Assembly: GCA_021740995.1 (NCBI GenBank)
Contig: JAIOYR010000042.1
Span: 1 to 33,459 of the forward strand
Reading direction: 5' to 3'
From: Taibaiella sp.
Lineage (GTDB): Bacteria > Bacteroidota > Bacteroidia > Chitinophagales > Chitinophagaceae
Length of the DNA: 33,459 bases
The position numbers and the translations under genes are program-made. Positions 13,860 to 33,459 of the stretch are shown here, in pieces. Within the stretch, counting starts at the first letter, position 1. Each line of letters begins with the position of its first letter. Below the pieces are notes generated by a model. It was not told where the DNA came from. It saw only the letters and a list, made by a program, of their open reading frames with translations, and ran no database searches.

Positions 13860-16800
13860 ATGAGAAAAACGACTACTTACTTTTGCACCCTACTAGCAAT
13901 TATTTCTTTCATAATAAGCACTCCATCGTTTGCTCAAATGGTAGGCGACCAGATTTTCCTGAAAGGAAAATGGGTACAAGTAGGAGTTGCACCAAACGGA
14001 TCGCTAGGCTCTACAAGACTTCCGCCGACCGGGGTATACAATTGCAATTCTCCCACATTTAATTTTTATGATCCGGGTATTGCCGCATTCACCGGCGCAT
14101 CTAACCAACGGTTAATGATGGTATATGATGCTGGTCTAGACGGATTTACTACCGGCACGCCCGCCTTTTTTGGTGATTACTCTATGCCTGGCACGCCATA
14201 TGAAGGTTGGGGCGTTCAGGTAAATGGCAACCATAGCGAAGCTCAGGCTCAATATTATTTGGCTACAACAACAGGTTTTGCTGGTGCAGCTGGGTTAACA
14301 GGTACTAATACTGCTTACCTAAATCCTACCGGGCAGACCATTGGAGTCTGGCAAGGTACTGCTGCCGGAGGTCAATTACAGATAACTCAGCGTACAACAG
14401 TGGACACAAATGCATCCTGGGTAAAAATGAGAGTTGTTCTAAGAAATACAGGCACTACTACGTTGACTGGTGTTCATTATTTGCGCGAAACCGATCCAGA
14501 CAATGATCAGCTAGCTCCGGGAGGGTCTTTCACTACTGTGAATGTAATTAACCATCAAAATGATTACTACCATAGAGTAATGGTAACAGCAACGGCAACA
14601 ATGTACACTACCCAAACTCTGTCTCTATCTACAAAAGATTGCAGAGCTAAATGTTTTATTCATAGCGGATGGCCAATGTCAACTAGTGTAAATCTTGCTA
14701 CTTTGTGGTCTACCGGTTGGAGTGGTTTTAACTTTACCGGTCCGGTAACTTCAGACGTAGCAATAGGACTGGTTTACAATCTTGGAAACATAGCCGCCGG
14801 CGACAGTACTGAATTGTCTTATGCCTACGTATTTAACGGTTTGTTAGGTATAGATAGTGCCATCGCCAATCCACAGCTCGTGGTAAATGGTATACCAAGA
14901 GATTCTACAGACACAGTAACTTCATGCTCGTTTACTGGAAGTACGTTGGCTTGTAGTATTACTAATGGCTCTACTGCTGACTGGTTCGGTAGTACTTGGA
15001 CCTGGGCGCCATCCACTTATCTTGCTACTACTACAGGCATTACAAATACAATCAGTGTAAGCTCAATAACAACACCAATTACTTATACGATCACCGGTAC
15101 GACAGGTGTATCAGGATGTGCCGGCAGAACGTTTTTCCTTACGGTAATGCCGCCAGGCACAACACCACCTCCTACTACTACCACACCGTTATCATACTGT
15201 CTTGGAGCTGCCACTGTGCCGTTAACTGCGTCGGGCGTAGGCACTATATATTGGTGGACTACTCCTACCGGGGGCACAGGCACTACGGTTGCACCTACCC
15301 CTTCTTCGGCAGCGGTAGGCACTACAACATGGTATGTCTCGCAGGTTGTAGCGGGATGTCCTAGTCCCCGTATTCCTGTAGACGTTACCATATTCGCTCT
15401 GTCTACTCCTATCACGGGTAGCTTATTTTTATGTACCGGATACACTACAACCTTAGCTAATGGTACGTCCGGAGGTGTATGGTCAAGCGGAACACCAGCG
15501 GTAGCAACTGTAGGATCAAGTACAGGAGTAGTAACCGGCGTATCGCCCGGCACTGCGATGATTTCCTATTCGGTATTAGGCTGTGTCGCCACAGCCGTAG
15601 TAACAGTAACTACAACTCCTGCGGCTATAACCGGCATTATGATAGCCTGTTTGGGAAGTACTACCACTCTGGCCAACTCTGTGCCAGGCGGAAGCTGGAG
15701 CAGCAGTAACATTGCTGTTGCTACAGTTGGATCTTCAACGGGAATTGTGACAGGCGTAAGTCTAGGCACAGCAACTATTACCTACAATATGGGAGGCGGG
15801 TGTTTCGTAACCACTATAGTTACTGTTAACCCGTTGCCATCTGCTATTACAGGTTCCTCCAGTTTATGCGTAGGAACTACTACACCTCTTGCCAGCGCCA
15901 CCCCCGGTGGCTTATGGACAAGCAGTACACCTAGTATAGCAAGTGTGGGAGTAGCTACCGGAATCGTTTCGGGAATCACCGCAGGTACTGCTACTATTAG
16001 TTACAGGGTAGCTGGTTGTGCAGTAACAATGGTAGTAACTGTAGTAACCGCGGCCACTGCTATTATAGGACCAACATCTGTATGCGTTGGATCTACCATT
16101 ACATTATCAAATGCAACCACTGGTGGAACCTGGACCAGCGGTGCAACAGGTATTGCCACAATTGGCAGTTCCTCAGGAATTGTAACAGGCGTTGCTTCAG
16201 GTACCGCTACAATAACTTATTTCCTGAGTGCAGGTTGTACTACTACAAGAGTAGTAACTGTTGTACCTACCCCAGCGCCAATATCAGGTACATTGAGTAT
16301 ATGTATTGGCGCTACAACTACTCTAAGCCACGGCACAGCTGGCGGTACTTGGAGTTCTGCTTGTCCAACAATTATTACAACGACACTTGGAACAGGTGTA
16401 GTTACAGGTCTTTCAGCAGGAACATGTAATGTTACTTATACACTACCAAGTGGTTGTATATCAGTAGCTACGGTTACTGTAAATGCAGCACCGGCAAGCA
16501 TAACAGGTACATTAGCAGTTTGTCAGGGAGCCACAACTACATTAAGCAGCGCAACACCCGGCGGCACATGGAATTCATCAACGCCAGCTATCGCTACTGT
16601 AGTAGTTGGGACCGGCTTTGTGACAGGCATAGCAAGCGGCACTACTACTATTACATACCGGGCAGCAACAGGATGTATCACTACTGCAGTGTTTACTGTT
16701 AATGCTGCACCTTCAGCGATTACCGGTACTACATCTGTATGTGTAGGTAATACTACATTGCTGAGCAGTACTACACCCGGCGGTGTTTGGAGTTCCTCTG

Positions 16801-19800: not shown

Positions 19801-22800
19801 TATTCCTGATACTTGCGCCTTACCCGATTTCTGGGCCACATGATATCTGTTTTGGACAAACCGTTACACTCACAAACCCAATTGGTGGTGGTGTGTGGAG
19901 CAGCAGTAATCCTATACCAATCCCGATAAACTCCTCAACAGGCTTTATAACTGGAGCTGGTATAGCAAACGGTGTTATCACTTACCTATTATCAACAGGT
20001 TGTTCATCAACGCATACGATGACTGTAAACCCTATACCGGTTGGCATCATTGGATCACTACAAGTGTGCGAGGGATTAACAACTACACTTACAAATCTCA
20101 CACCTGGTGGAACATGGGGCAGCAGCAACATTACAGTGGCTACTATAGACCCAATGACAGGGATTGCTACCGGAATTTCAGCTGGAACGGCGACTATAAC
20201 CTATGCGCTTGGCACGGGTTGTAATGCAACAGTGATTCTTACTGTAAATCCATTGCCAAATGTAATTTCCGGAAGCCCACAGGTATGTGAAGGCTCTACA
20301 AGTGCACTAGGTAACACAAGTACAGGAGGCACCTGGAGTAGTGCAAATCCTTCGGTCGCATCAATCGACATTATTACGGGTGTAATGACAGGTATGTCTG
20401 CAATGACACCTGGAGTTCTTGGAGTGGGTATGACAATAATCACATACACACTACCCACATCATGTATCCGTACACAAGACGTTACAGTTAATCCACTCCC
20501 AACACCAATTGTTGGCATATCTAACATCTGTATAGGTGATATTACAGGCATGACCAATACTACACCTGGCGGTGGTTGGATAAGCAGTAATCCGACAATA
20601 GCATCAATAGATTTATCTGGAATTGTAACCGGTAATGCAGCTGGATCTGTAGTGATATCATATATGCTGCCAACGGGATGTATTGCTACAAAACCATTTA
20701 CAGTATCTGCTAACCCAACACCAATAACTGGTTCATTGGGCGTGTGTGCCGGGTTCACTACAAACCTATCCAGCGGCCCATCTGGCGGGGTATGGAGTCA
20801 AGATCCTACTTCTATGATCTATGGAACTATTCACCCTATGACGGGTGTGGTTAGTGGTATTATGGCAGGTGTCATACCTATTACTTACACTTTAGGCTCA
20901 GGTTGTAATACAATTGAAAATGTTACAGTTATTACTTTACCGGCAGCAATTAGTGGTACGCCACGGGTTTGTGTTGGTGACTCTACAGTGATGACCAACT
21001 CGGTGGCAGGTGGTATATGGAGCAGCAGTATTGCCACACGTGCTTCTATAGACCCCGTAACGGGTATGGTGCACGGGTTGAATGCAGGTACTGCAGTTAT
21101 AACTTATTCTGTTGGTACCGGTTGTTTCAATGTTCATACTATAACAGTTAACCCGCTACCAGCTACCATAACAGGACCATTACAGGTTTGCGAAGGGTCT
21201 ACAATATTGTTAACCACGGCAACCACAGGTGGAAACTGGATTAGTGATACCACCGCACATGCCACTGTTGGTTACACATCAGGTATTGTAACAGGTATCG
21301 CAGCAGGAGTTTCAAACATAAGTTACGTGATTGGTGCAACCGGATGTTTGCGCGCGGTTCAGGTAACCGTAAATCAAACACCACCTGCAATACTGGGCAA
21401 CCCTCATGTATGTATCGGCGCATCAAATACATTTACAAATGCAATGCCTGGCGGTCTATGGAGCAGCAGCAATCCTGCTATAGCTACCATAGGTGCTACA
21501 ACAGGAGTTGTTACCTCTGTTACAACCGGAATTGTTACTATTACTTATCAGCTTACGGCTACAGGTTGCAGAGCAACAAGGATAATAACAGTTCAACCAT
21601 TGCCTACAGCGTATAATGTAACTGGAGGTGGTAACTACTGTACAGGAAGCAGCGGTGTTCATATTTACCTGAGTGGCTCTCAGCCTGGTGTTAGTTATGT
21701 ATTGTACAACGGTGCTTCCGCAACCGGGTATATGTCCGGCACAGGTTTTGCTCTTGACTTTGGTTTGCTAACAACTAGCGGTGTTTACACAGTTCAGGCA
21801 ACCAATGTTACCAGCGGTTGTATACGTAACATGAGTGGTAGTGCTACTGTAATAGCTACACCATTGGTGACACCAATTGTGGCAATAACAACCAGCCCTT
21901 ACGATAGTGTATGCCCTGGTCAGTCAGTGAACCTAATTGCAGACACAGCTAATGCAGGCAATGCCCCTACTTATCTATGGAAAGTAAATGGTGTAAGCGT
22001 AAGTACTGCGATGAGTTACAGCTTTGTACCTGCAAATGGTGATGTAGCTACCGTCTCGATGAACAGTAATGCAAATTGTTTGTCAACACCAACAGTTTCT
22101 GCTTCAAGAGTGCTGACAGTACTGCCAAATGCATTGCCGGTAGCAGGAGTAACAACAACACCCAATGATACAATCTGCCAGTTCAACCCCGTAACATTTA
22201 CTGCAGCACCAACTTATGGCGGAAATAGTCCTTCCTACACCTGGCTGGTAAACGGAGTTGTGGCTGGAACCGGAGCTACTTACAGTTATATACCTGTAAA
22301 TGGAGATGTAGTAAAGCTGAGTATGACAAGTGATTACCGTTGTCGCCTTGCTACTACAGTTAGCAGCAGTGATGTGCCAATGACAGTTGATTCATTGCTA
22401 CTACCAATTGTAGATGTCTATCCTGATCCTGGTTTTGAAATAGAATATGGCAAGCCTGTAACCTTGCATGCATCAGTAACCAATGGTGGATCTGCTCCTA
22501 AATACCAGTGGAAAGTGAATAAAACGCCTATACCAGGAGCTACCCTATCCAGCTACACAGGTATCTTCAACGACTATGACTCAGTTACCTGTACGGTGAC
22601 TAGTAGTGGTGTATGTGCTAATATTGGCACTCACGATTGGGTATTTATATCAATTGTAACATTAGGTGCTAATGGCACGCAAATCAGTGCAATAAATGAC
22701 CTGAGACTAGTACCTAATCCTAATAAAGGTATATTTACAATAAGGGGCACACTTGGAAATACCAATGCTACTGCTGTAAATGCAGAGGTAACCAATATGT

Positions 22801-22955
22801 TGGGACAGGTAGTGTACAGTGGTGTACTGAAAGCCGGACAAGGCAAAATAGATGCACAGATACTGCTGAATAGTGACCTTGCAAATGGTATGTATATCCT
22901 TACTTTGCGTACAGAAGATCAACAGAAAGTTTTCCACTTTGTATTAGAACAATAG
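13860..22955 (+). CDS. Giant T9SS-secreted surface protein with 28 Ig-like repeats
   Basis: This complete 3031-residue protein has a signal peptide cleaved near 'SFA|Q' (25/26). A unique head covers about residues 26-345 and includes 'WVKMRVVLRNTGTTTLTGV' and 'LRETDPDNDQ'; I do not recognise its family. Two Ig/PKD-like domains follow (about 346-516, the second resembling Ig_7). Next come 28 tandem BIG2-type repeats (517-2583) and a domain opening 'YNVTGGGNYC' (2584-2670). Three Ig-like modules begin at residues 2671, 2760 and 2849. The end is a T9SS type A sorting domain (2948-3031, 'LVPNPNKGIFTI' and 'GMYILTLRTED'). The protein should cross the outer membrane by T9SS and be attached to or shed from the surface. 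The array is Thr/Ser/Gly/Val-rich with two conserved Cys per repeat and very few charged residues. An adhesin or stalk role is inference. A strong terminator follows. Confidence 0.93.
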   Translation: MRKTTTYFCTLLAIISFIISTPSFAQMVGDQIFLKGKWVQVGVAPNGSLGSTRLPPTGVYNCNSPTFNFYDPGIAAFTGASNQRLMMVYDAGLDGFTTGTPAFFGDYSMPGTPYEGWGVQVNGNHSEAQAQYYLATTTGFAGAAGLTGTNTAYLNPTGQTIGVWQGTAAGGQLQITQRTTVDTNASWVKMRVVLRNTGTTTLTGVHYLRETDPDNDQLAPGGSFTTVNVINHQNDYYHRVMVTATATMYTTQTLSLSTKDCRAKCFIHSGWPMSTSVNLATLWSTGWSGFNFTGPVTSDVAIGLVYNLGNIAAGDSTELSYAYVFNGLLGIDSAIANPQLVVNGIPRDSTDTVTSCSFTGSTLACSITNGSTADWFGSTWTWAPSTYLATTTGITNTISVSSITTPITYTITGTTGVSGCAGRTFFLTVMPPGTTPPPTTTTPLSYCLGAATVPLTASGVGTIYWWTTPTGGTGTTVAPTPSSAAVGTTTWYVSQVVAGCPSPRIPVDVTIFALSTPITGSLFLCTGYTTTLANGTSGGVWSSGTPAVATVGSSTGVVTGVSPGTAMISYSVLGCVATAVVTVTTTPAAITGIMIACLGSTTTLANSVPGGSWSSSNIAVATVGSSTGIVTGVSLGTATITYNMGGGCFVTTIVTVNPLPSAITGSSSLCVGTTTPLASATPGGLWTSSTPSIASVGVATGIVSGITAGTATISYRVAGCAVTMVVTVVTAATAIIGPTSVCVGSTITLSNATTGGTWTSGATGIATIGSSSGIVTGVASGTATITYFLSAGCTTTRVVTVVPTPAPISGTLSICIGATTTLSHGTAGGTWSSACPTIITTTLGTGVVTGLSAGTCNVTYTLPSGCISVATVTVNAAPASITGTLAVCQGATTTLSSATPGGTWNSSTPAIATVVVGTGFVTGIASGTTTITYRAATGCITTAVFTVNAAPSAITGTTSVCVGNTTLLSSTTPGGVWSSSAPAIATVSGGGLVTGLSSGTTTMGTATITYTSSGGCHTTTVVTVNAGPAAITGSLAICSGFTTTLTSATTGGVWTSSAPAIATVLSPGFIGGSSFGTATISYTIGSCSATAVVTVNTLPGAIGGSLSVCAGQCNTLTNATGGGTWASSNPAVATIDVATGLFCGVTAGTATITYSLGSGCITTSVVTVNIVPATISGSLNICAGVTTTLTNATPGGTWLSDNVLAATIGVGTGVATGIAPGGTATISYTLPTGCRSTVVMTVNPVPGVISGTTNVCSGSCTTLTNPTAGGTWSSTNLSIGTINAATGLFCGNLAGTTTVSYTMPSGCARSIVILVNPLPTGISGTLQVCAGSTTTLTGTPTMGTWASSTTTVGTIDIGSGVLTGVSAGTTTITYTLATGCSRTAVASVNPIPAVITGTNTVCVGQTTALTSATAGGTWASSATAIATVNASGVVSGVSGGAGSATTTITYTLPTGCRTTTTVTVFALPGLITGAAGNLCPGTSVTLSCLPVGGTWTSGATGIATIGVTTGIATGIASGTANITYTLGTGCTAIRAVTVNNIPDPITGSLTTCVGQTTTLSTTSIGGTWSSGSPAIATINSSGVVTGVSGGAGSATVVISYTMPTTCVVTNIVTVYALPGNITGTLQVCEGLTSTLTTSTPGGTWTSSNTAVATVDVTTGVVTGVSATPAPATATITYSLGTGCYKTATVSVSPLPAIVTGVMQVCIGGTTTLSNATSGGTWSSSATGVATVVAGSGVVTGTGAGTAAISYTLSTGCSRSGIVTVHPLPSVITGPSEVCVNSTITLGSTPPGGIWSSPDATVSINPSTGDLFGNSAGTATVSYTIGIGCTRTKSITVNPQPATITGDLGVCIGFNTLLATTSTGGTWNSSIPAVATIDASGLVTSVTTGTTTVMYTLPVTGCTRAVIVRVDSLPAPSTGSDGFCNLSSTTYSTLTPGVRWSTSDTSIIVIDSVTGVATGVSVDTADIIVRIAATGCSTTKSVFLILAPYPISGPHDICFGQTVTLTNPIGGGVWSSSNPIPIPINSSTGFITGAGIANGVITYLLSTGCSSTHTMTVNPIPVGIIGSLQVCEGLTTTLTNLTPGGTWGSSNITVATIDPMTGIATGISAGTATITYALGTGCNATVILTVNPLPNVISGSPQVCEGSTSALGNTSTGGTWSSANPSVASIDIITGVMTGMSAMTPGVLGVGMTIITYTLPTSCIRTQDVTVNPLPTPIVGISNICIGDITGMTNTTPGGGWISSNPTIASIDLSGIVTGNAAGSVVISYMLPTGCIATKPFTVSANPTPITGSLGVCAGFTTNLSSGPSGGVWSQDPTSMIYGTIHPMTGVVSGIMAGVIPITYTLGSGCNTIENVTVITLPAAISGTPRVCVGDSTVMTNSVAGGIWSSSIATRASIDPVTGMVHGLNAGTAVITYSVGTGCFNVHTITVNPLPATITGPLQVCEGSTILLTTATTGGNWISDTTAHATVGYTSGIVTGIAAGVSNISYVIGATGCLRAVQVTVNQTPPAILGNPHVCIGASNTFTNAMPGGLWSSSNPAIATIGATTGVVTSVTTGIVTITYQLTATGCRATRIITVQPLPTAYNVTGGGNYCTGSSGVHIYLSGSQPGVSYVLYNGASATGYMSGTGFALDFGLLTTSGVYTVQATNVTSGCIRNMSGSATVIATPLVTPIVAITTSPYDSVCPGQSVNLIADTANAGNAPTYLWKVNGVSVSTAMSYSFVPANGDVATVSMNSNANCLSTPTVSASRVLTVLPNALPVAGVTTTPNDTICQFNPVTFTAAPTYGGNSPSYTWLVNGVVAGTGATYSYIPVNGDVVKLSMTSDYRCRLATTVSSSDVPMTVDSLLLPIVDVYPDPGFEIEYGKPVTLHASVTNGGSAPKYQWKVNKTPIPGATLSSYTGIFNDYDSVTCTVTSSGVCANIGTHDWVFISIVTLGANGTQISAINDLRLVPNPNKGIFTIRGTLGNTNATAVNAEVTNMLGQVVYSGVLKAGQGKIDAQILLNSDLANGMYILTLRTEDQQKVFHFVLEQ
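15408..21608 (+). repeat. Array A: 28 tandem BIG2/Ig-like repeats, about 73-74 codons each
   Basis: Every unit follows one plan: 'ITG...(V/I)C.G.TTTL', then 'GG.W.SS', 'AT(I/V)', 'TG.VTG', 'GT.TITY', 'GC' and 'VTVNPLP'. The unit is 71-81 codons, mean 73.8. Two cysteines, near unit positions 9 and 58, occur in nearly every unit and probably form an intra-repeat disulphide. Units are well diverged from one another, so this is an old array, not a recent tandem expansion. Examples: unit 5 at 16278-16496, unit 9 at 17160-17378, unit 11 at 17601-17819, unit 13 at 18039-18266, unit 15 at 18489-18716, unit 20 at 19602-19823. Confidence 0.95.
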
Positions 22956-22974
22956 TAGATTTCTTTTAAATCTG

Positions 22975-23006
22975 AAAAGGGTTGCCCGAAAATGGCAACC
23001 CTTTTT
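22975..23006 (+). terminator. Intrinsic terminator of the first giant gene
   Basis: A perfect 12-bp stem (22975-22986 with 22994-23005, core GGGTTGCC/GGCAACCC) has a 7-base loop and ends in TTTTT, 20 bases after the stop codon. Confidence 0.92.
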
Positions 23007-23191
23007 CGTTTACAATCGAGAAAGAAATACGTTGTGGTAATATAAATATTAATCCACACCCAACTTTTGATTATGAGAATCCGCCTATATTACTGTACAC
23101 CAGTTGACATTATATCAATATGATAATATATTTATACAGATAAAGTGTAAAATTATGGCGATAAATAATAGATGAATGGCTTTTAATATCT

Positions 23192-23199
23192 TATATTTG
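23192..23199 (+). promoter_or_regulatory. Bacteroidota -7 box for the second giant gene
   Basis: TATATTTG fits TAnnTTTG. If used, it gives a leader of roughly 125-130 bases before the ATG at 23333, much longer than the leader of the first giant gene. No clear -33 element is seen. Confidence 0.3.
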
Positions 23200-23249
23200 G
23201 TTTGCTGATTTATAAAGATCGTTGAAATAATTACAGGACTTCAAATCGT

Positions 23250-23281
23250 GTTGCAGTATTCATACATCATAATACTGCGGC
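23250..23281 (+). promoter_or_regulatory. Stem-loop in the leader of the second giant gene
   Basis: GCAGTATT (23253-23260) pairs perfectly with AATACTGC (23271-23278) around a 10-base loop. In RNA, two G-U pairs and one G-C pair could extend it to 11 pairs. It lies about 52 bases before the start codon and is not followed by a T-run, so it is not a standard terminator. Confidence 0.4.
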
Positions 23282-23332
23282 CTGTTTAATTAAATAGAAA
23301 TATACTCATACTTATTTTCTAAAATTGCTGCT

Positions 23333-26300
23333 ATGAAAAAACTCGATGCTACCCATATATTATCAAACCGGATATTATTGCTGACTACTGTTTTCATTTT
23401 TCTGTTTAGTAATAATCCGGTTATAGCTCAATCTGCTAAACAGGCAGCAATTCCCACAAACAACCTCTGGGAAAAGGTTGGTTCTGTAGACATACCTGAA
23501 GCAACTCAAAAAAATGACAAAGGAATTCCTATAACAAACGCAGGAGGAAAGACTAAAAAAAACTTTACTGATTTTTCGAAGACAACCAGATATGAAGGAA
23601 AGGAAGTAATAAATTATAATAGTGGTTTTGAGCAGCATCCGGAACTGGGTGTCTTGTATGCTGATGTACCATGTAATGATTGTTATGAACTGATTGGTAA
23701 ACGAACAGCTACTCAAAAATACTTTGTAAAGGAAGGCACACAGACAAGTTCCTTTGTACTGCAATCGCACCAATATCCTGTGCATTATAAAGATGCTTCC
23801 GGCAACTGGCTAACCATAACCGGGAATCTGGAAAAAGACGAAAAAAAGACCGGTGTGTATTTTACAAAAGGCAGACCGGTAAATGCTGAAATAAACACTA
23901 AGAATCGCTATAGCAAACTGGCAGGAAACGGAATAAGCATCACCTACAACAACAAAACAGAACTGGTATATGTAAAATCAGATGGCACAGAAACGTCACT
24001 GGGACAGGCAGACTGGAGCAACTACACAGCTGGCGATGATGGCATTCGGATTACAGATGCATGGCCAGGTATTGACATTGAAATTACAGTACTTGCCAAT
24101 AGTCTAAAAACGAATTTTGTTGTAAAAAACGCCCTACCTGCATACGCCTCAGGCAAACTGATACTTCGGGACAATATCATTACCAGTGAGGGATTGTCTA
24201 TGGATATCCACGAGGCACAAATCAGGAATGGATCGATTGACATAGTAAATAGCAGTGGTGATAAAGCGTTCACAATAAATAACGCATTTGCTTACGAATT
24301 AAATGGCAATGAAAATTCCATAACAGAGTTGACTTACAAAAAAACTGAAGACAATACGCTGGATATTGAAATACCAGGAAGTCTGCTCAACAAAACTGCA
24401 ACGTCTTATCCACTGATTATTGATCCGTTGGTAGCCAGTACATTATCATCAGGATTCACTTATACGTCAGGAACTTTTCCTCCAGCATTTACCAGCACCT
24501 CTGAATATTGTACTAATACCAACAATATATCCATTCCTGCCGCAGCAACGCTCACAAATATTGAGATAACATACAACTATTACGGCCCACCTTCCATTTC
24601 CTGGGCACAATCAAGACTTGCATTCCAGATAAATGGCGCCTGTACTTATGGATGGTTATCCTGTGCTGCTACGGCTTTAAGTAGCGGTATTCCGGGTAAT
24701 ACATGCGGATTGATGAACAGCAGTTTTTGGTCCACTGGTCCAGCCTGGGGTACTACTTCAGGGTGTTTACCTGCCTTTAACTGTAACGCATACTCACTTC
24801 CGTTTCAGTTATTACTCACTCAGGCACAGACATCCACTGCGGCTTGTGCTCAAACCGTATACGCTACCGCAAGTGGGTTTACGGTAACATTGTCAGGGAC
24901 TACTGCAATGTTACCAACCATTACGCCATCAACTGCCGCTACTGTATGTATGCCAACGACGCTTGCACTCACAGGTTCACCAGCGGGCACATGGTCTTCA
25001 TCAGTACCTGCTGTAGGTACAGTATCTACTACAGGTATTGTAACCGGAATTACAAATGGCACCACAAACATAACATATACTGCAAGCGGATGTACCTCAT
25101 TCATAAATGTAACTGTCGGCACTACTCCAACTGTTACAGGTACTCCTTCTATTTGTTTTCCGGGCAGTACTACGCTTACAGGCACTCCCGGGGGTGGTAC
25201 CTGGACATCTTCGCTCACAGGTGTGGCAACAGTGGCTGCCGGAGTCGTGACCGGAGTATCTGTAGGTACTACAATCATAAACTACAACACAGGCACTTGT
25301 TCATTTAATCAACCTGTAGATGTAAACAATCCGGCAGCAGTAACACCAACTACACAACCAACCAGTATTACATTCTCATCGCCTACTCCTACAGGGGCTA
25401 CTATAAACTTTACCCCAAATGGCTCTACTGGCTATCTGGTAGTAGCAAGCACCAACTCAGTATTGTATGCATCTCCAACCACCTATACGACCTATGCAAC
25501 AGGGGCATCATTTGGTGGCGGTATTGTAATACAAGGATCAACATCCGGCAGTTCGCCGTCATATACTACTACCCTGCTCAATTCTAATACCTACTATTAT
25601 GTTTTCGTATTTGCTTTCAACAATAATTGTACAGGACCACAATACAATTCTGTATCACCGCTTACCGGTGGATTCAGTACATGTGTAGCACCTACAAGCA
25701 CACCAACAATTGGCACAACAGGTGTTAACTTTATCAGCCTTAGCTGGACAGCATCTCCCGCTGGCGGCAGCTACATTAACCCCATAAACTATACAGTATA
25801 TGCCTATACTGATGCTGCGCTTACTACACTAGCCACTGGTTTTCCTGCTGCTGCCGGTGTCGGCACTACCTACACTGCCACCGGACTCACGCCTGCTACA
25901 CAATACTGGTTCAGAGTATCGCCGTCTGATGCCTGTGCTATTGTAAGTGGTGTAGCTACAGGAATGACCGTATGCACTTCGGCGGGGTCTATACCGTATC
26001 TGCAAACGTTTGAAGTAAGCACAACGCTGGGTGACCGAAACCCAAACTGCATGACATCAAATGTTCAGAATTGTGTTTTCTCCGGGGTACAGACCAGTGT
26101 TACTTTTACCGGAGTCATCAATACGAATCATACTCCGGGCGGCACAAAATTCTACAACTTTTACAGGGGTGGTGCATGTTCCAGTGGGTGGGCAAATCAA
26201 TGGCTGCTCCTTCCGGGACTTGCAATGACAGCAGGCACTACCTACACGCTTAGCTTCTGGTACCGAACCGATGGTACTGCCTGGCCGTCAATCACAGCAC

Positions 26301-29300
26301 ATTATAGCACTACAAGCACTGTACCTGCCGTAACCGCTACTGTAATGGGCGGGTCGCCGGGCACTATAGGGACAGGTGTAACAGGTACCGCCACCACCAC
26401 TTATCTCCAATATATTCAGAACTTCACTGTACCAACGTCCGGCACTTACTATATTGGCCTTAACGCTTCGAGCGCGGTCGGTGCCGGCACTAGTGGTGGA
26501 TTGCTTGCTATTGATGATATTGAAGTATGTGCAGTACCTACTGTTACTGCTACCAACAGCACAGCACCATACTGTGCTCCGGACACAGTATACCTGACAT
26601 CAACCGGCACAACGAGCGCTGTTACCTACGCATGGGCAGGTCCAGCCGGCTACACATCAACCTCTGCTAATCCTCCGGGGCTTACCGGACTGGGTGCAGG
26701 CAGCTACACCTACACACTTACTGCCGTAAATGATCCTATTTCAGCCGGTTACGGTGGTTATTGTACAGCCAGTGTGACTACAACCTTTACGATGAACAAT
26801 CCTCCGGCTGCTATTACCGGTGCAACATCATTATGTACCGGGCAGACGACAACTTTAGCTAATTCGGTCAGTGGTGGTACATGGTCGAGCAGTAATCCTG
26901 CGGTGGGCACTATAAGCACTTCGGGGGTTTTAGGTGGCATTACTGGAGGCACTACAACTATAACCTACAGTATAGGCGGATGCTTTGCCACAATGGTCGT
27001 TACCGTCACACCTATGCCAGGGGCAATAGGAGGAATAACCATTGCTTGCCTCGGCGGAACGACAGTTTTATCAAATTCGGTCAGTGGTGGCACTTGGTTT
27101 TGTTCTTCAACTTGTACCAATCTTACTGTAGGGGCAACTACCGGTATTGTTACCGGCGTTGCACTGGGAACATGTATTGTAACCTACTCAACCGGCGGGT
27201 CCTGTTTTGTAACAACTACAGTCACCGTAAACCCACTTCCGGCTCCTATAACCGGTTCTGCTAGTGTTTGCATAGGTACCACTACTCCATATACAAGTGC
27301 TACCCCCGGCGGAGTATGGACCAGTAGCACACCGTCTGTTGCCAGCGTGCACCCTATAACAGGAATAGTGACAGGTGTTTCAGTAGGTACTGCTACCATC
27401 AGTTACCGTGTAGCCGGATGTTCGGTTACACAAGTGATAACTGTTATAGCAGCGCCTACACCCATAGTAGGTCCATCAACCGTATGTGTCACCTTTCCCA
27501 CAATTACTCTTACCAACATTTCTGCGGGCGGCACTTGGAGCAGCAGCAATACCAATGTAACCATCGGTTCGGCTACAGGCGTCGTAACAGGTAATGTAGC
27601 AGGAGGAACAAGTACTATAACTTACTCACTAAGTGCAGGATGCTATGCAACCACTGTAGTAACGGTGCTGCCAACCCCGGCAGCAATAACCGGCACATTA
27701 GCTATTTGCGAAAGCGGAGGCACTACCACACTCAGTCACCCGATATCGGGTGGAACATGGGCAAGCGGCAGCAGCAATGTTACCGTGGCTTTGGGAACCG
27801 GACTGGTTACAGGTGTTACAGCGGGCACAGCAAATGTTACTTATACTTTACCTACGGGCTGTGTGGCAATAGCAGTTGTTACTGTAAATGCGCTACCTGC
27901 CCCAATTACTGGTATACTGAGTATCTGTGTAGGAGGCGCGTCCACTTTGAGCTCAGCCACACCGGGTGTTACCTGGAGCAGCAGTAGCCCATCTATAGCA
28001 ACTATTGGCATTGCAACAGGAATTGTTACTGGCATAAGCCCCGGAACAGTAACCATGATTTGCCCCACGACCGCTGGCTGCCAGAGAAGTGTTATCGTTA
28101 CAGTAAACCCAGCACCTTCTTCAATAACCGGCATTTTAACGGTATGTACCGGACAAACAACTACTCTAAGCAGCGCTACATCGGGTGGTGCGTGGAGTAG
28201 TTCTACTCCAGCAGTAGGTACAGTATCCGGCACGGGAGTGGTAACCGGACTAACCGCCGGAACAACCATAATCACTTACGGTCTTGGCTCTGGTTGTTTT
28301 ACTACTGCAACAGTTACGGTCAATTCGTCCCCTGCACCTATAACAGGTACTCTGGTTATATGTACAGGTTTTACCACAACTCTTTCATCTGCTACTACAG
28401 GAGGTGTGTGGTCGAGTAGTACACCATCGGTTGCTCCAATACTAAGTCCGGGCATTGTTGCGGGAGCTGGCTTCGGTACATCAACAATTGTCTATACACT
28501 TGGAAGTTGTTCTGCTACTGCTGTTGTAACTGTTATAGCTTTACCCACAATTGGTGGAGGTACTAGTGTTTGTGTTGGACAGTGTAGTTTGCTTACCAGC
28601 CCAACAACGGGTGGCACTTGGTCTAGTAGTTCTGCGGCAATTGGCACAGTTGATCCTTCAACTGGTTTGTTCTGTGGCATATCACCAGGTACAGCAACCA
28701 TCTCCTATTCAACAGGCTGTGTTAGTACTACTACAGTCACCGTAAACGCAAACCCCTCTGCAATAGGAGGAACGCTTAGTATATGTGCAGGTATTTCTAC
28801 CACGCTAAGCAGTGCACCGGGAGGTGGTACATGGGTGAGCAGCGACGGCACTGTAGCTACTATCGGGGTCGGTACAGGAACCGCTATAGGCATTGCACCC
28901 GGCGGCACAGCTACCATATCATATACTCTTGCTACAGGTTGCAGAAGCACAGCAATACTTACCGTAAACACATCTCCGGCAGTTATTACCGGAGTTACCA
29001 ATGTATGTATTGGTGCTACCACTACCCTTAGCAGTGCTACAATGGGTGGCATCTGGAGCAGCAGCAACGGCAACTCAACCGTCAACCCAGTAACAGGAGT
29101 TGTAACCGGTGTATTTGCCGGCACTTCAACCATTTCCTATACATTGCCTACCGGTTGTTCCCGCACGGCAGTTGTATTGATAAACCCCCTACCTACCGGT
29201 ATTAGCGGATCGCTGCAGGTATGCGAAGGTTCTGCAACAACACTCTCCGGAACTCCGGCAGGTGGCACATGGGTAAGCAGCACCCCTGCCATAGGCACTA

Positions 29301-32300
29301 TAGGCATAGGAACGGGTACACTCGGCGGTATTCTTGCCGGCACTACTACTATTACTTATACGTTGCCCACAACCTGCCAGTTGACCGCAATAGCTTCCGT
29401 TAATCCACTACCTGCTGCAATAACCGGCACACCAACCACATGCATAGGGCAAACAACAAGCTTGAGCAGTACGTCTGCAGGTGGCACATGGGCTAGTGGT
29501 TCTCCCTTGATAGGTACTATAGATGCAGCAGGAACCATAACAGGACTGGCAGCAGGCACATCTGTTATTTCCTATACACTTCCCACCGGTTGTCGTCGTA
29601 CAATAATAGCTACTGTATATGCACTGCCCACGCTTATAACCGGTGCAGCAAATGTGTGTGTGGGTCTTACAACTACACTCAATAGTACTCCGGCAGGCGG
29701 CACGTGGACAAGTAGTGCACCGCTGATCGCACCGGTTGCCCTTACTACAGGCGTAGTGACAGGGAATGCTACAGGCACAGCTACTATTACCTATACTGTG
29801 GGAACAGGTTGTTTCCGTACTACCACAGTAACAGTAAATGCTTTACCAAACCCCATAACCGGCTCGCTTACTACCTGCGTATCCGGCACTACTACACTGA
29901 GCAGCACTACACCCGGCGGCATCTGGTCTTCCGGTGCAACAGGTGTAGCTACAATAGGAGCCACAACCGGTATTGTAAATGGGCTTTCAGGAACTTCTAC
30001 TGCAACAATTAGTTACACATTACCTACTACTTGCCGTGTTACAGATGTGGTTACAGTATATGCACTTCCTGCAAACATCACAGGTTCATTACAGGTTTGT
30101 GTAGGTTCCACTGCTTCTCTCAGCACTGCAACACCGGGTGGCACTTGGGCCAGCAGCACACCCGCTGTAGGTTCTATTGATGCTACCTCAGGTGTTGCCA
30201 CCGGCATTGCCGCAGGCACTACTACCATTACTTATACGCTGGGTACAGGATGTATTAAAACAGCAGTGTTGACCGTCAATTCACTACCAGCATCTATCGG
30301 TGGCGTATTGCAAGTATGCCAGGGTGCTACTACAACACTTACTAATGCAACAGGTGGCGGCACATGGAGTAGCAGCACACCTGCTAATGCAAGTATCTCA
30401 GCAGGTGGTATTGTGACAGGCGTTTTGCCCGGCACATCTACTATCAGCTATACACTCGCTACTGGTTGTCGCAGCACTGCTATCGTTACGGTAAACGGAC
30501 TGCCGGGTGTTATCAGTGGCCCGTCTGAAGTCTGCGTAAATTCTACCATAAATCTTGGAGGATCTCCCGGAGGAGGCATCTGGAGCAGCCCACACGCTAC
30601 AGTCGCTGTAAATCCTGCTACCGGAGATGTAACCGGTGTTACAGCAGGTACAGCAACAATAAGCTATACTATAGGTACAGGTTGTGTCCGCACAACTATT
30701 GTTTCTGTAAATCCTTTGCCAAGCCCTATTACTGGTAATCCGGGAGTATGTATCGGTTCTACAACTACACTGGCTACGCTTAGTACAGGTGGCACATGGA
30801 TCAGTATATCTACCGGCATTGCGACAATAGATGCATCAGGTGTAGTAACAAGTGTAGCCGTAGGCACTACCACTATCTCATACGTTCTGCCAGTGACCGG
30901 CTGTGCAAGTACTGTTATAGTTACTGTTAACAGCTTACCGGCAACTATCACCGGCAGTGATGGATTCTGTAATCTAAGCAGTACAACATATAGTACCCTT
31001 ACACCTGGAGTGCGCTGGAGCACATCAGATCCATCGGTTATTGTGATAGACTCTGTAACAGGAGTTGCCACAGGGGTATCCGTAGATACTGCAGATATAA
31101 TAGTACGGGTAGTAGCTACAGGTTGCACAGTTTCAAAAAGTGTGTTCCTGATATTGGCTCCCTACCCTATCACTGGTCCTAATGATGTATGCCTCACACA
31201 GTGTATTACTTTAGGAAACCTCATAGGCGGTGGTACATGGTCTAGTAGCAATTCAACAGTTGCTCCCATATCCTCCACGGGGACAGTTTGTGGTGCTGGT
31301 TTAGGTGTAGCAACGATCACTTATGTACTTTCTACCGGTTGCTCCTCTGTTCATAGCATGACCGTAAACCCAATACCGGTAGGCATCTTAGGATCACTCC
31401 AGGTATGTGAAGGACTGACAACGGCATTAACGAACATCACACCCGGAGGAAACTGGACAAGTAGTGATATTTCAATAGCCACTATTGGCTCATCATCAGG
31501 AATTGTTACCGGCATATCAGGTGGCACTGCTATTATCACTTATGCACTTGGCACAGGTTGTAACTCTACCGTTATTGTTACAGTAAATCCATTACCCGGT
31601 GCTATAACAGGCACACCCCAGGTTTGCGAGGGACTGTCAACTACACTGGCAACTACCAGCACAGGTGGCTTGTGGAGCAGTGCAGATCCCGGAATAGCAG
31701 ATATAAATGCTGTAACTGGTCATATGACCGGTATGTCTGCTATGACTACTGGCGCTTATGGCACAGGTATCACCACGATAACCTATACACTACCAACAGG
31801 TTGTATACGTACATTGCAGGTATCAGTCAATCCGCTGCCAGCCGCCATATCTGGTGCTATGAACATTTGTGTGGGGGATGCAACTGCATTCACCAATACC
31901 ACTCCCGGTGGCGGATGGATGAGTAGCAATCCTGCTGTGGGTACCATAGACGGTGTTACCGGAGTGTTCAGCGGAATATCTGCGGGTGTTTCTATCATCT
32001 CCTATGTGTTGCCCACCAGCTGTATCGCTACAAAATCGATAACAGTTAATGCCAATCCGGCAGCAATTGGCGGCTCACTGAGTGTATGTGCAGGTTTCTC
32101 TACTAATCTTACCAGCGGTCCTGCCGGTGGAGCTTGGAGTCAGGATCCAATGTCTATGACTTTTGGCACTATACACACAATGACCGGCGTGGTAAGTGGT
32201 ATCACCGCAGGTACTATACCTGTAACCTATACTCTAGGAAGTGGCTGCCGTGTTACAGAGACAGTAACAGTAATAACATTGCCATCGGCCATCAGTGGTA

Positions 32301-33459
32301 CACCAAGAGTATGTGTTGGTGATTCTACTATAATGACCAATCCCGTTGCCGGTGGCACCTGGAGCAGCAGCAATACTGCCCGAGCCACTATGGATGCAAT
32401 AACGGGTATGGTACATGGTATATCTGCCGGCACTGCTGTTATAACTTATGCAGTAGGTACAGGTTGCTTCAATGTACATACCATAACGGTAAATGCACTT
32501 CCTGCCACTATTGTAGGTCCGCTGCAGGTATGCGAGGGGTCTACAATACTATTATCAAATGCAACACCGGGCGGCTTGTGGATAAGTGATACAACAGCGC
32601 ATGCGACAATTGGTTTTGTTAGTGGTATAGTGACTGGCATCAGCGCCGGATTGTCTAATATCTCCTACTCTATAGCGACTACTGGTTGCCTGAGAAGAGT
32701 GCAGGTAACGGTAAACCAAACACCACCGGCAATTACCGGCAACCCGCACATTTGTATTGGCGCTGCCAACACATTTAGTAACACTATGCCCGGTGGCTCC
32801 TGGTATAGCAGCAATCCTGCTATTGCCACTATAGGATTAACAACGGGTATCGCTACATCAGTAACAACTGGCATCATTACTATAAGCTATGTAATGCCGG
32901 CAACCGGCTGCATGGCTACAAGAATTGTAACCGTTCAACCATTGCCTACGGTATATAATGTAACAGGAGGTGGTAACTACTGCGCAGGCGGATTTGGTAA
33001 TCACATTTACCTCAGTGGCTCACAGCCGGGTGTAAGTTATGCATTGTATCGCGGAGCTACCGCTACCGGCTATCTGCCGGGCACAGGTTTTGCACTGGAC
33101 TTTGGATTGCTCACTGGTGCAGGTGTGTACACTGTTCAGGCTACAAATGTAACCAGCGGCTGTATGCGCAATATGGCAGGTAGCGCTACCATAACCATAA
33201 CACCACTGGTAACACCAACAGTAGCAATCATTGCTACACCGGATGATAGCGTATGTGCCGGGCAGTCAGTAACACTCACTGCAGATACCGCACATGCGGG
33301 CAATGCACCAACCTACCTATGGAAGGTAAATGGTGTAAGTGTGGGCGCAGCAATAAATTATGCTTTTGTACCGGCCAATGGCGATGTGGCTACAGTGGCT
33401 ATGACGAGCAATGCAAATTGTCTGGCTGCCTCAACTGCTTCTGCATCCAAGACGCTAAC
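23333..33459 (+). CDS. Second giant Ig-repeat surface protein, 3' end outside the window
   Basis: The frame opens at ATG 23333 and stays in phase to the right edge (at least 3375 codons, no stop). The signal peptide is cleaved near 'VIA|Q' (32/33). The head has several parts. Residues about 130-367 resemble the N-terminal region of WapA/Rhs-type proteins ('YPVHYKDASGNWLTI', 'SYPLIIDPLV'). A Cys-rich stretch follows (about 368-520). Then come two BIG2-like repeats (about 523-670), two FN3-like domains (about 671-881) and a MAM/choice-of-anchor-J-like domain (about 883-1069, 'LTFxVST' type start, 'LAIDDIEVC' end). A PKD-like domain (about 1070-1159) closes the head. After this come 28 repeats (1160-3206), the 'YNVTGGGNYC' domain, and the start of Ig-like modules as in the upstream neighbour. 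A T9SS sorting domain is expected beyond the window. No toxin domain is seen in the visible part. Confidence 0.93.
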   Translation, partial: MKKLDATHILSNRILLLTTVFIFLFSNNPVIAQSAKQAAIPTNNLWEKVGSVDIPEATQKNDKGIPITNAGGKTKKNFTDFSKTTRYEGKEVINYNSGFEQHPELGVLYADVPCNDCYELIGKRTATQKYFVKEGTQTSSFVLQSHQYPVHYKDASGNWLTITGNLEKDEKKTGVYFTKGRPVNAEINTKNRYSKLAGNGISITYNNKTELVYVKSDGTETSLGQADWSNYTAGDDGIRITDAWPGIDIEITVLANSLKTNFVVKNALPAYASGKLILRDNIITSEGLSMDIHEAQIRNGSIDIVNSSGDKAFTINNAFAYELNGNENSITELTYKKTEDNTLDIEIPGSLLNKTATSYPLIIDPLVASTLSSGFTYTSGTFPPAFTSTSEYCTNTNNISIPAAATLTNIEITYNYYGPPSISWAQSRLAFQINGACTYGWLSCAATALSSGIPGNTCGLMNSSFWSTGPAWGTTSGCLPAFNCNAYSLPFQLLLTQAQTSTAACAQTVYATASGFTVTLSGTTAMLPTITPSTAATVCMPTTLALTGSPAGTWSSSVPAVGTVSTTGIVTGITNGTTNITYTASGCTSFINVTVGTTPTVTGTPSICFPGSTTLTGTPGGGTWTSSLTGVATVAAGVVTGVSVGTTIINYNTGTCSFNQPVDVNNPAAVTPTTQPTSITFSSPTPTGATINFTPNGSTGYLVVASTNSVLYASPTTYTTYATGASFGGGIVIQGSTSGSSPSYTTTLLNSNTYYYVFVFAFNNNCTGPQYNSVSPLTGGFSTCVAPTSTPTIGTTGVNFISLSWTASPAGGSYINPINYTVYAYTDAALTTLATGFPAAAGVGTTYTATGLTPATQYWFRVSPSDACAIVSGVATGMTVCTSAGSIPYLQTFEVSTTLGDRNPNCMTSNVQNCVFSGVQTSVTFTGVINTNHTPGGTKFYNFYRGGACSSGWANQWLLLPGLAMTAGTTYTLSFWYRTDGTAWPSITAHYSTTSTVPAVTATVMGGSPGTIGTGVTGTATTTYLQYIQNFTVPTSGTYYIGLNASSAVGAGTSGGLLAIDDIEVCAVPTVTATNSTAPYCAPDTVYLTSTGTTSAVTYAWAGPAGYTSTSANPPGLTGLGAGSYTYTLTAVNDPISAGYGGYCTASVTTTFTMNNPPAAITGATSLCTGQTTTLANSVSGGTWSSSNPAVGTISTSGVLGGITGGTTTITYSIGGCFATMVVTVTPMPGAIGGITIACLGGTTVLSNSVSGGTWFCSSTCTNLTVGATTGIVTGVALGTCIVTYSTGGSCFVTTTVTVNPLPAPITGSASVCIGTTTPYTSATPGGVWTSSTPSVASVHPITGIVTGVSVGTATISYRVAGCSVTQVITVIAAPTPIVGPSTVCVTFPTITLTNISAGGTWSSSNTNVTIGSATGVVTGNVAGGTSTITYSLSAGCYATTVVTVLPTPAAITGTLAICESGGTTTLSHPISGGTWASGSSNVTVALGTGLVTGVTAGTANVTYTLPTGCVAIAVVTVNALPAPITGILSICVGGASTLSSATPGVTWSSSSPSIATIGIATGIVTGISPGTVTMICPTTAGCQRSVIVTVNPAPSSITGILTVCTGQTTTLSSATSGGAWSSSTPAVGTVSGTGVVTGLTAGTTIITYGLGSGCFTTATVTVNSSPAPITGTLVICTGFTTTLSSATTGGVWSSSTPSVAPILSPGIVAGAGFGTSTIVYTLGSCSATAVVTVIALPTIGGGTSVCVGQCSLLTSPTTGGTWSSSSAAIGTVDPSTGLFCGISPGTATISYSTGCVSTTTVTVNANPSAIGGTLSICAGISTTLSSAPGGGTWVSSDGTVATIGVGTGTAIGIAPGGTATISYTLATGCRSTAILTVNTSPAVITGVTNVCIGATTTLSSATMGGIWSSSNGNSTVNPVTGVVTGVFAGTSTISYTLPTGCSRTAVVLINPLPTGISGSLQVCEGSATTLSGTPAGGTWVSSTPAIGTIGIGTGTLGGILAGTTTITYTLPTTCQLTAIASVNPLPAAITGTPTTCIGQTTSLSSTSAGGTWASGSPLIGTIDAAGTITGLAAGTSVISYTLPTGCRRTIIATVYALPTLITGAANVCVGLTTTLNSTPAGGTWTSSAPLIAPVALTTGVVTGNATGTATITYTVGTGCFRTTTVTVNALPNPITGSLTTCVSGTTTLSSTTPGGIWSSGATGVATIGATTGIVNGLSGTSTATISYTLPTTCRVTDVVTVYALPANITGSLQVCVGSTASLSTATPGGTWASSTPAVGSIDATSGVATGIAAGTTTITYTLGTGCIKTAVLTVNSLPASIGGVLQVCQGATTTLTNATGGGTWSSSTPANASISAGGIVTGVLPGTSTISYTLATGCRSTAIVTVNGLPGVISGPSEVCVNSTINLGGSPGGGIWSSPHATVAVNPATGDVTGVTAGTATISYTIGTGCVRTTIVSVNPLPSPITGNPGVCIGSTTTLATLSTGGTWISISTGIATIDASGVVTSVAVGTTTISYVLPVTGCASTVIVTVNSLPATITGSDGFCNLSSTTYSTLTPGVRWSTSDPSVIVIDSVTGVATGVSVDTADIIVRVVATGCTVSKSVFLILAPYPITGPNDVCLTQCITLGNLIGGGTWSSSNSTVAPISSTGTVCGAGLGVATITYVLSTGCSSVHSMTVNPIPVGILGSLQVCEGLTTALTNITPGGNWTSSDISIATIGSSSGIVTGISGGTAIITYALGTGCNSTVIVTVNPLPGAITGTPQVCEGLSTTLATTSTGGLWSSADPGIADINAVTGHMTGMSAMTTGAYGTGITTITYTLPTGCIRTLQVSVNPLPAAISGAMNICVGDATAFTNTTPGGGWMSSNPAVGTIDGVTGVFSGISAGVSIISYVLPTSCIATKSITVNANPAAIGGSLSVCAGFSTNLTSGPAGGAWSQDPMSMTFGTIHTMTGVVSGITAGTIPVTYTLGSGCRVTETVTVITLPSAISGTPRVCVGDSTIMTNPVAGGTWSSSNTARATMDAITGMVHGISAGTAVITYAVGTGCFNVHTITVNALPATIVGPLQVCEGSTILLSNATPGGLWISDTTAHATIGFVSGIVTGISAGLSNISYSIATTGCLRRVQVTVNQTPPAITGNPHICIGAANTFSNTMPGGSWYSSNPAIATIGLTTGIATSVTTGIITISYVMPATGCMATRIVTVQPLPTVYNVTGGGNYCAGGFGNHIYLSGSQPGVSYALYRGATATGYLPGTGFALDFGLLTGAGVYTVQATNVTSGCMRNMAGSATITITPLVTPTVAIIATPDDSVCAGQSVTLTADTAHAGNAPTYLWKVNGVSVGAAINYAFVPANGDVATVAMTSNANCLAASTASASKTL
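24899..25345 (+). repeat. Two isolated BIG2-like repeats in the head of the second giant protein
   Basis: Two units with 'VCMPTTLALTGSPAGTW', 'TGIVTGITNGT' and 'SGC', then 'ICFPGSTTLTGTPGGGTW', 'GVVTGVSVGT' and 'GTC', match the repeat plan of the main array. They are separated from it by about 1.45 kb of FN3-like, anchor-J-like and PKD-like domains. They have no counterpart in the first giant protein. Confidence 0.8.
26810..32950 (+). repeat. Array B: 28 tandem BIG2/Ig-like repeats, colinear with array A
   Basis: There are 28 units of mean 73.1 codons with the same plan as array A. Unit by unit they carry the private signatures of the same-numbered unit of array A. Shared signatures include unit 1 'LC.G.TTTLAN', unit 2 'IACLG.TT.L.NSV', unit 3 'TTTP' and 'TISYRVAGC', unit 8 'LSPG' and 'GSCSATAVV', and unit 10 'GIAPGGTATISYTL'. 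Others are unit 18 'GPSEVCVNSTI', unit 20 'GSDGFCNLSS', unit 23 'GMSAMT', unit 25 'WSQDP', unit 26 'GTPRVCVGDST' and unit 27 'ISDTTAHAT'. Examples: unit 2 at 27023-27244, unit 9 at 28547-28759, unit 20 at 30944-31165, unit 21 at 31166-31381. Confidence 0.95.

Follow-up and report, generated by a model that had tools for sequence, protein, structure and literature searches.

How do two giant, differently headed genes come to share an array of 28 repeats, matched unit for unit and in the same order, and what holds that number constant? The genes, here called A and B, lie one after the other in a 33,459-nucleotide stretch of Taibaiella sp. DNA (contig JAIOYR010000042.1 of assembly GCA_021740995.1; the whole stretch is referred to as the window). 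Very probably, as we argue below, they belong to a set of genes with different heads on one 28-domain stalk, in which the outer units were inherited with the head and units 7-28 and the tail were converted within each genome. The parts of the two genes are as follows (T9SS, type IX secretion system; Ig, immunoglobulin).

13860..22955, + strand: gene A, head type I, 3031 amino acids; signal-peptide-like start (judged by eye), head, 28-unit stalk, tail and T9SS type A sorting domain
13860..15416, + strand: head I of A; no Pfam match; a PHO4 transporter adjoins in four genomes
15417..16724, + strand: A units 1-6; history tracks head type, clearly in units 1-4, leaning that way in 5-6
16725..21605, + strand: A units 7-28; history tracks genome (concerted with B and a third copy, C)
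21606..22955, + strand: tail of A; YNVTGGG domain, PKD/Ig-like domains and terminal Por_Secre_tail sorting domain
22713..22943, + strand: T9SS type A sorting domain of A (TIGR04183, residues 2952-3028)
23333..33459, + strand: gene B, head type II; interrupted by the contig end after 3375 amino acids
23333..26818, + strand: head II of B; passes the cut-off for fn3, with DUF7948-like and Big_2-like stretches that score too low for their own
26819..28129, + strand: B units 1-6; history tracks head type, clearly in units 1-4, leaning that way in 5-6
28130..32947, + strand: B units 7-28; history tracks genome
32948..33457, + strand: start of the B tail; 77% amino acid identity with the A tail, the remainder lying beyond the contig

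Cutting the units at a G..xC motif (A, 15417-21605; B, 26819-32947) placed them three residues out of phase with the original prediction, a reading made from the letters of the window, and yielded 28 Big_2 Ig-like units in each array, in the same order. An all-against-all comparison gave a mean A-B identity of 66.7% in register and 46.4% off register (756 pairs), with each offset from -6 to +6 except 0 at 46.1-48.5%. The prediction that no unit had been gained or lost is thus borne out, and its by-eye identities come close to the values measured in units 6, 20 and 27 (53.4, 89.2 and 81.1%). The best B match of an A unit carried the same number in 24 of 28 cases (misses: units 1, 6, 9 and 16), the reverse comparison did so for 23 of the 28 B units (misses: units 1, 7, 13, 16 and 17), and a maximum-likelihood tree of the 56 units joined A-n and B-n as sisters 21 times out of 28, the exceptions being units 3, 6, 7, 13, 14, 16 and 17. 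The further claim that each unit has a private signature therefore holds for the register overall and is slightly too strong for a few consensus-like units; likewise, the sister pairs anticipated for all 28 appeared in the 21 just given. Register, order and count agree far beyond chance, and the homology runs on past the array, as had also been predicted, into the YNVTGGG domain and the tail (77% over the 167 amino acids present in B, whose open frame is truncated at its 3' end and runs to the last bases of the contig). At the DNA level the arrays are about 64% identical in register and 52% off register, and units within one array are 46% identical in amino acids and 52-53% in nucleotides. Fourfold-degenerate (4-fold) sites agree at 35.5% in register against 34.9% off register and are saturated, whereas non-synonymous divergence is halved in register (0.27 versus 0.53), indicating that the pairing resides in the protein sequence and is old. 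The ratio of non-synonymous to synonymous divergence (dN/dS) between A and B was discarded as a measure of rate because the silent sites are saturated.

A and B are not alone. The window's own genome (G000; other G numbers denote genomes of the same genus) carries a third in-register array, copy C (locus L022, its 5' end cut by the contig); it too has 28 units, which are 66-68% identical to those of A and B. Head I, the C-terminal 401 amino acids of head II, and head III, a further head type, served as queries against 35 genomes of the genus, among them that of the window. Among the matches listed, close relatives of head I (at least 76%) occur in at least seven genomes, the window's own included, those of the head II segment (at least 65%) in at least eight and those of head III (at least 54%) in at least seven, making at least nine genomes overall; outside the window's genome, head I has relatives at 75-83% identity in at least six genomes and the head II segment at 65-73% in at least seven. 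Fourteen arrays are complete, namely three in G000 (A, B and C), three in G002, five in G044 and one each in G009, G018 and G010, and all 14, from six genomes, have 28 units and no unit gap. The check proposed with the original prediction, counting units in relatives, thus returned a constant number, and no free variation was seen. Eleven truncated arrays (L072, L076, L077, L095, L096, two in L097, and L098-L101) fit the register over their visible part, save for a weak one-unit gap between L099 and one of eight references.

Some definitions bear on these counts. Proteins with 29-31 matches comprise the 28 units plus one to three Ig-like head domains; in the type III genes of G009, G018 and G010 a third extra domain (77-78 amino acids) directly precedes unit 1 and was counted as head, because it lies within the stretch that aligns with the whole head III of G002, where no unit was called. 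For G009 III and G018 III, unit-level alignment with A extends over units 1-27; the assignment of unit 28 is by position (46-49% to A). Sequence G2y, 98% identical to G2x, was left out of the pair and tree counts, as were last units cut by contig ends and arrays sharing fewer than five units from the array-pair comparison. At a strict threshold (shuffle null up to 1073), unit-level alignment was significant for 51 of the 91 possible pairs of the 28-unit family and contained a single gap, in the head part of L094 versus L093; full-length alignment of ten pairs likewise contained a single long gap (63 amino acids, A versus C), located in the truncated head of C.

When arrays of different genomes are compared (75 pairs), same-numbered units are 55.4% identical on average, and an offset of 1 to 3 lowers the value to 44-45%; for 1285 of 2100 units the closest counterpart bears the same number, the fraction ranging from 0.13 (unit 17) to 1.0 (unit 25). 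Among the 14 complete arrays, conservation between genomes peaks at units 25 and 26 (70 and 67%, the other units lying at 49-59%), and the length of unit 25 is invariably 75 amino acids. Related heads (45-59%) were also found at nine more distant loci, all ended by contig ends, on arrays whose visible parts align with the 28 units over a few units at most; over longer periods, then, heads and stalks seem able to separate. At L107-L110 (G013, G004, G020 and G001), head II relatives (45-46%) stand on arrays with later units of about 80-82 amino acids, a different stalk type.

The stalk itself has two histories. Head A is 73.7% identical to its G002 counterpart and head B 71.6% to its own, and the arrays and tails are closer within a genome. 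Over 170 array pairs, in-register means were 62.0% for arrays of the same genome, 55.5% for arrays with the same head and 53.9% for the others, the off-register value being constant at about 44%. The advantage of same-genome over same-head pairs (seven of each) was -11 points at unit 1 and had reached +26 by unit 27, a trend along the array with a Spearman coefficient of 0.76, whose p value is only indicative since units are not independent. A tree of units 1-6 contained well-supported clades for head II and head IV (the latter comprising copy C and two G044 genes) and a weak one for head III (80/81), with head I failing to resolve, whereas in a tree of units 7-28 the arrays of G000, G002 and G044 each grouped by genome. 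In a label-only test, in which constraints were built from labels alone for 11 arrays of these three genomes, grouping by genome was rejected in units 1-2 and 3-4, units 5-6 favoured neither grouping, and grouping by head was rejected in all 11 windows of units 7-28 and in the tail; approximately unbiased (AU) tests on the blocks 1-6 and 7-28 agreed with these windows. An insertion points the same way: six residues in unit 27 are common to the G002 genes with heads I, II and III, the fourth G002 copy has a similar insertion of five, and none of 11 compared genes of other genomes has it. Most of the stalk and the tail thus group by genome while the heads, judged by their sequences, are orthologous between species.

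In two relatives the exchange is recent enough to be caught in silent sites. Between G002 II and G002 III, units 1-24 are 44-86% identical, units 25-28 81-100% and the tail 96%, and at unit 25 the 4-fold identity steps up from 0.30 to 0.65, a change matched in 0 of 1000 permutations. Silent-site breaks occur near units 24-26 in three G044 pairs, and identity between G044 I and IVa jumps from 74 to 99% between units 10 and 11. Breakpoint tests on 15 pairs gave four clear cases (G002 II/III and the three G044 pairs), a marginal one (B-C, 4/1000) and ten with none. Both marks of gene conversion are therefore present in the family, segment-wise grouping by genome or by orthologue and tracts of raised silent-site identity with sharp ends, the latter in 4 of 15 pairs, A-B not among them. 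The five G044 copies lie on five contigs and, in G002, two copies are neighbours and the others apart, so that much of the exchange is ectopic. The order PEPCK, PHO4 (a phosphate transporter), head I is kept in G000, G042, G002 and G044, which argues that the head I locus was inherited in place; in G010 it is head II that comes after PHO4. The best account is gene conversion whose breakpoints fall within the stalk, in the direction of its 3' end. It is observed in G002 and G044; in the window's own genome the same mechanism is inferred from the trees, as the A-B silent sites are saturated. An apparent recent mosaic of A, B and C (unit 20 at 89% in A-B against 63-64%; units 10 and 11 at 84 and 79% in B-C) found no confirmation at silent sites and was dropped.

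The following course of events would account for these data. Members of the family are built alike: a signal peptide comes first, then a head (at least four types, I-IV, occur), then the 28 Big_2 Ig-like domains, and last a tail shared by all that includes a T9SS sorting domain. One genome may carry several differently headed copies, partly at separate loci. Heads and the first six or so units would be inherited with the locus (demonstrated for the locus of head I), and units 7-28 and the tail would at times be overwritten, through gene conversion, with the corresponding segment of a paralogue in that genome. Exchange would pair units of the same number, presumably on account of their greater similarity in DNA (64 versus 52% in A-B), leaving unit number and order unchanged through each event, and the units of one array would be too different in DNA to recombine readily, which would prevent internal expansion, contraction or homogenisation.

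Several observations weigh against conversion as a general account. Type III genes of G009 and G018 are 51.7-53.4% identical to the other types of their own genome and 59.1% to type III of the other species, and G009 II is nearest to G018 II (61.2%); on this sequence grouping, the concert is not universal. The tail of G044 III stands apart from its siblings (61-62%). At 4-fold sites neither A-B nor A-C shows a breakpoint (the observed value is attained in 497 and 906 of 1000 permutations, respectively), eight further of the 15 pairs have no clear break (47 to 979 of 1000), and 4-fold identity in A-B (0.355) lies at the off-register background (0.349). The boundary between units 6 and 7 first emerged from the same data, although the label-only test uses nothing but labels; the label IV of copy C rests on units 1-6 and 71 amino acids of head (58%); and all arrays of G007, G014 and G042, and some of G002, G009, G010 and G018, end at contig ends.

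The simplest rival, put forward in the original prediction, is a plain old duplication, in which one 28-unit gene was copied once as a block and the copies diverged while selection on length kept the count. In-register pairs, equal counts and saturated A-B silent sites are what it would leave behind. However, other species have heads I and II as well; the genes therefore predate the species split and the A array should be nearest to its orthologue, whereas from unit 7 onwards it is nearest to B and C, contrary to this reading in the label-only windows; nor is a stable count a special mark, since most other sampled giant arrays have one too. The units 7-28 and tails of A, B and C being closer to one another than to their orthologues, and units 1-6 and heads not, repeated copying between paralogues is needed, and we regard a single block copy as highly improbable. 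Head-wise units 1-6 and genome-wise units 7-28 would also result if heads with their first six units moved between species or loci onto resident stalks, and related heads do stand on arrays that fail to align with the 28 units in other species of the genus. Such shuffling is very unlikely, given that head I sits beside the same PHO4 and PEPCK in four genomes (evidence that concerns the head I locus only) and that the recent breakpoints fall near units 24-26, inside the stalk, and not at unit 6. That an assembler mixed similar arrays, a concern raised by the many arrays that break at contig ends, can be practically dismissed: A and B, at about 64% nucleotide identity in register and with a longest common word of 18 bases, are too far apart for short-read collapse, and genome-wise trees were obtained from three separate assemblies (G000, G002 with about ten contigs, and G044), with genome-wise grouping also in the identities of G010 and G042. 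Conversion between differently headed genes is accordingly the reading that we retain for the two histories.

The constancy of the count calls for an account of its own, as in-register exchange passes the unit number on yet leaves equality between species unexplained. We lean towards neutral freezing, that is, units too diverged in DNA for slippage or recombination, an explanation that concerns the fixed count only and is compatible with conversion. The longest exact DNA repeat is 15 bp within A and 18 bp within B (codon-shuffle mean, 17), and the program Tandem Repeats Finder (TRF) found no tandem repeats in the array DNA; with no exact repeat beyond the codon-shuffle range, there is little substrate for slippage or unequal recombination. 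B does hold more repeated 12-mers and 15-mers than its codon shuffles (96 versus 38 and 17 versus 4), which speaks against freezing. Published arguments fit it: extreme variation in number has been linked to the highest repeat identity in periscope proteins (PMC8201768), and a paper on the Acinetobacter BAP argues that diversification of modules should lower slippage-driven size variation (PMC4647330). As controls we used 85 arrays of at least six units from regions sampled in G000, G002 and G044 (with few overlaps, some units or genes being counted twice). Eight of ten cross-genome control pairs, drawn from six other array families, lacked a unit-sized internal gap at 53-62% identity, and both gapped pairs involve L127, which has two units fewer than L026 and L141, so that loss or gain does occur, a further point against freezing. 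Most other giant arrays sampled in the genus keep their counts (e.g., 44/44 and 12/12). Within genomes, long gaps are absent from L119/L117 and L125/L126; L137/L139 has a single one (46 amino acids, in the head), and L151/L150, proteins that are unlike over parts, has nine; one-unit gaps suggested by unit-level alignment in L115/L036 and L115/L132, and one in L120/L147, were not confirmed by full-length alignment. Count stability is thus common among diverged arrays of the genus. The proposal that a fixed count of 28 signals selection on length is not borne out by the count alone, in the light of the lack of long DNA repeats and of the equal stability of most sampled giant arrays; selection on array length is possible, and freezing leaves unexplained why a replaced stalk is never shorter or longer.

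What might these proteins do? The units belong to the Ig-like beta-sandwich of the Big_2 type (PF02368; 173 bits in A, 134 bits in B, cut-off 22.8). Ig_NUP210_16th, the Pfam model of an Ig domain of the nucleoporin NUP210, outscores Big_2 on both A and B, and NUP210 is the top sequence match among solved structures. A ends in a sorting domain (TIGR04183, 36.2 bits, cut-off 23); B is cut before its own, and its counterparts G002 II and G044 II have full-length tails. The genome encodes T9SS machinery, as judged by its match to SprA_N (501 bits in G000). Among the heads scanned, a lectin-family match was found in head III only (in G002: Lectin_leg-like, 40.5 bits, cut-off 24; Lectin_legB, 29.5 bits, cut-off 26.3; Lectin_L-type_dom, at 61.8 bits, remained below its cut-off of 78.3); head II passes for fn3 only and head I had no match, a profile search of solved structures with head I returning nothing up to an E value of 1 and an AlphaFold model from nine sequences reaching only a poor predicted local distance difference test (pLDDT) score of 45.8. 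From their domain content, the proteins of the A/B family are likely T9SS-exported fibrillar adhesins, which would hold different heads, one of them lectin-like, at an equal distance from the cell. An Ig-like domain spans 3.5-4 nm; if each does so here, the stalk is roughly 100 nm long. At unit 9 (17169-17387 in A, 28556-28768 in B) and across 1842 units of three genomes (some of them counted twice, as regions overlap), the two cysteines of a second pair are present or absent together within a unit, as if they formed an optional second disulfide.

A bolder idea, which we consider unlikely, is that differently headed chains assemble into a mixed fibre or bundle in which unit n has to match unit n, conversion allowing selection to keep the rods matched. 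It would give the cell an interchangeable set of heads on one standardised 28-domain rod, and would explain the indels common to a genome (unit 27 in G002), the common tail, the unchanged length, and the head-bound first six units as an adaptor. Stalk repeats are usually treated as near-identical and variable in number, or as inert spacers; the present array has two sharply separated histories, with outer units tied to the head and inner units common to a genome's set. With at least four head types in several species as natural replicates, one can ask if selection or mere freezing sets the stalk length, and if differently headed adhesins cooperate.

Segment-wise concerted evolution and gene conversion in Big_2 arrays are already known, so that parts of this picture are not new. 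The products of babA/babB and homA/homB of Helicobacter pylori are outer-membrane adhesins not known to have a tandem-domain stalk, and these genes were compared within one species, whereas the present family was compared between species. In them, as described in PMC2795765, segment 1 diverges by gene and segment 3 evolves in concert within a strain, which is ascribed to gene conversion. LigA and LigB of Leptospira have 12-13 moderately similar Big_2 domains, their genes being tandem in some strains; the account given in PMC7821625 has one domain block kept alike, again ascribed to gene conversion, and the rest private. The shared Lig block is N-terminal and nearly identical, whereas that of the present family is C-terminal and consists of 22 units and the tail; for the most part it is old, and it recurs in register at several loci and with several head types. 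Periscope proteins carry a head on a stalk of folded tandem domains (PMC8201768), in which strains differ in the number of repeats, themselves highly identical in DNA; the units of the present stalk have diverged (46% identical in amino acids) and their number is constant between the species seen (28 in 14 of 14 complete arrays, a between-species sample), so that the proteins fall outside that class. Fibrillar-adhesin-like proteins are described as combining tandem stalk domains such as Big_2 with at least one adhesive domain (PMC8286594); the 28 Big_2 units agree with the former, and, of the heads scanned, a lectin-family match was obtained for head III only. In RgpA, Kgp and HagA of Porphyromonas gingivalis, a conserved C-terminal domain and adhesin modules are reported as common to paralogues with different N-termini (PMC5266723), but the order and number of modules vary between genes and strains, unlike in the present stalk. 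GhpA, the hook protein of Aureispira, described as secreted by the T9SS (PMC11205867), is a giant surface protein with Ig-like domains and was among the better Foldseek matches (PDB 9flp and others; 20-24% identity), although its template modelling (TM) score was only 0.35-0.40 over the rod and it was absent from the nine profile-search matches to solved structures; no evidence of a hook feature as in GhpA was found in the present proteins. A search of the literature on giant Ig-like T9SS proteins found nothing on these proteins. As far as the literature listings show, what is new is the scale (22 domains and the tail, several heads, several species), the strictness of the register at identities of 55-68%, and the abrupt switch of history within a single stalk.

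Further arrays of the same domain abound in these genomes. G000 gave 202 matches to a unit query, and 20 sampled regions, L023-L041 among them, hold 22 other array frames of 7 to 35 units each, some ended by a contig. L125 and L126 (G044:C43:122000-152000) are tandem genes with 27-unit arrays in mutual register, another shared-stalk set; by their coordinates, the terminal cut frame of L125, with 26 units, and the truncated frame with which L126 begins appear to be parts of a single gene, making three genes in all. Upstream of A in the window, a potassium channel gene of the inward-rectifier type (IRK_C, 72.5 bits; 7372-8349, + strand) adjoins a polysaccharide-synthesis-type gene.
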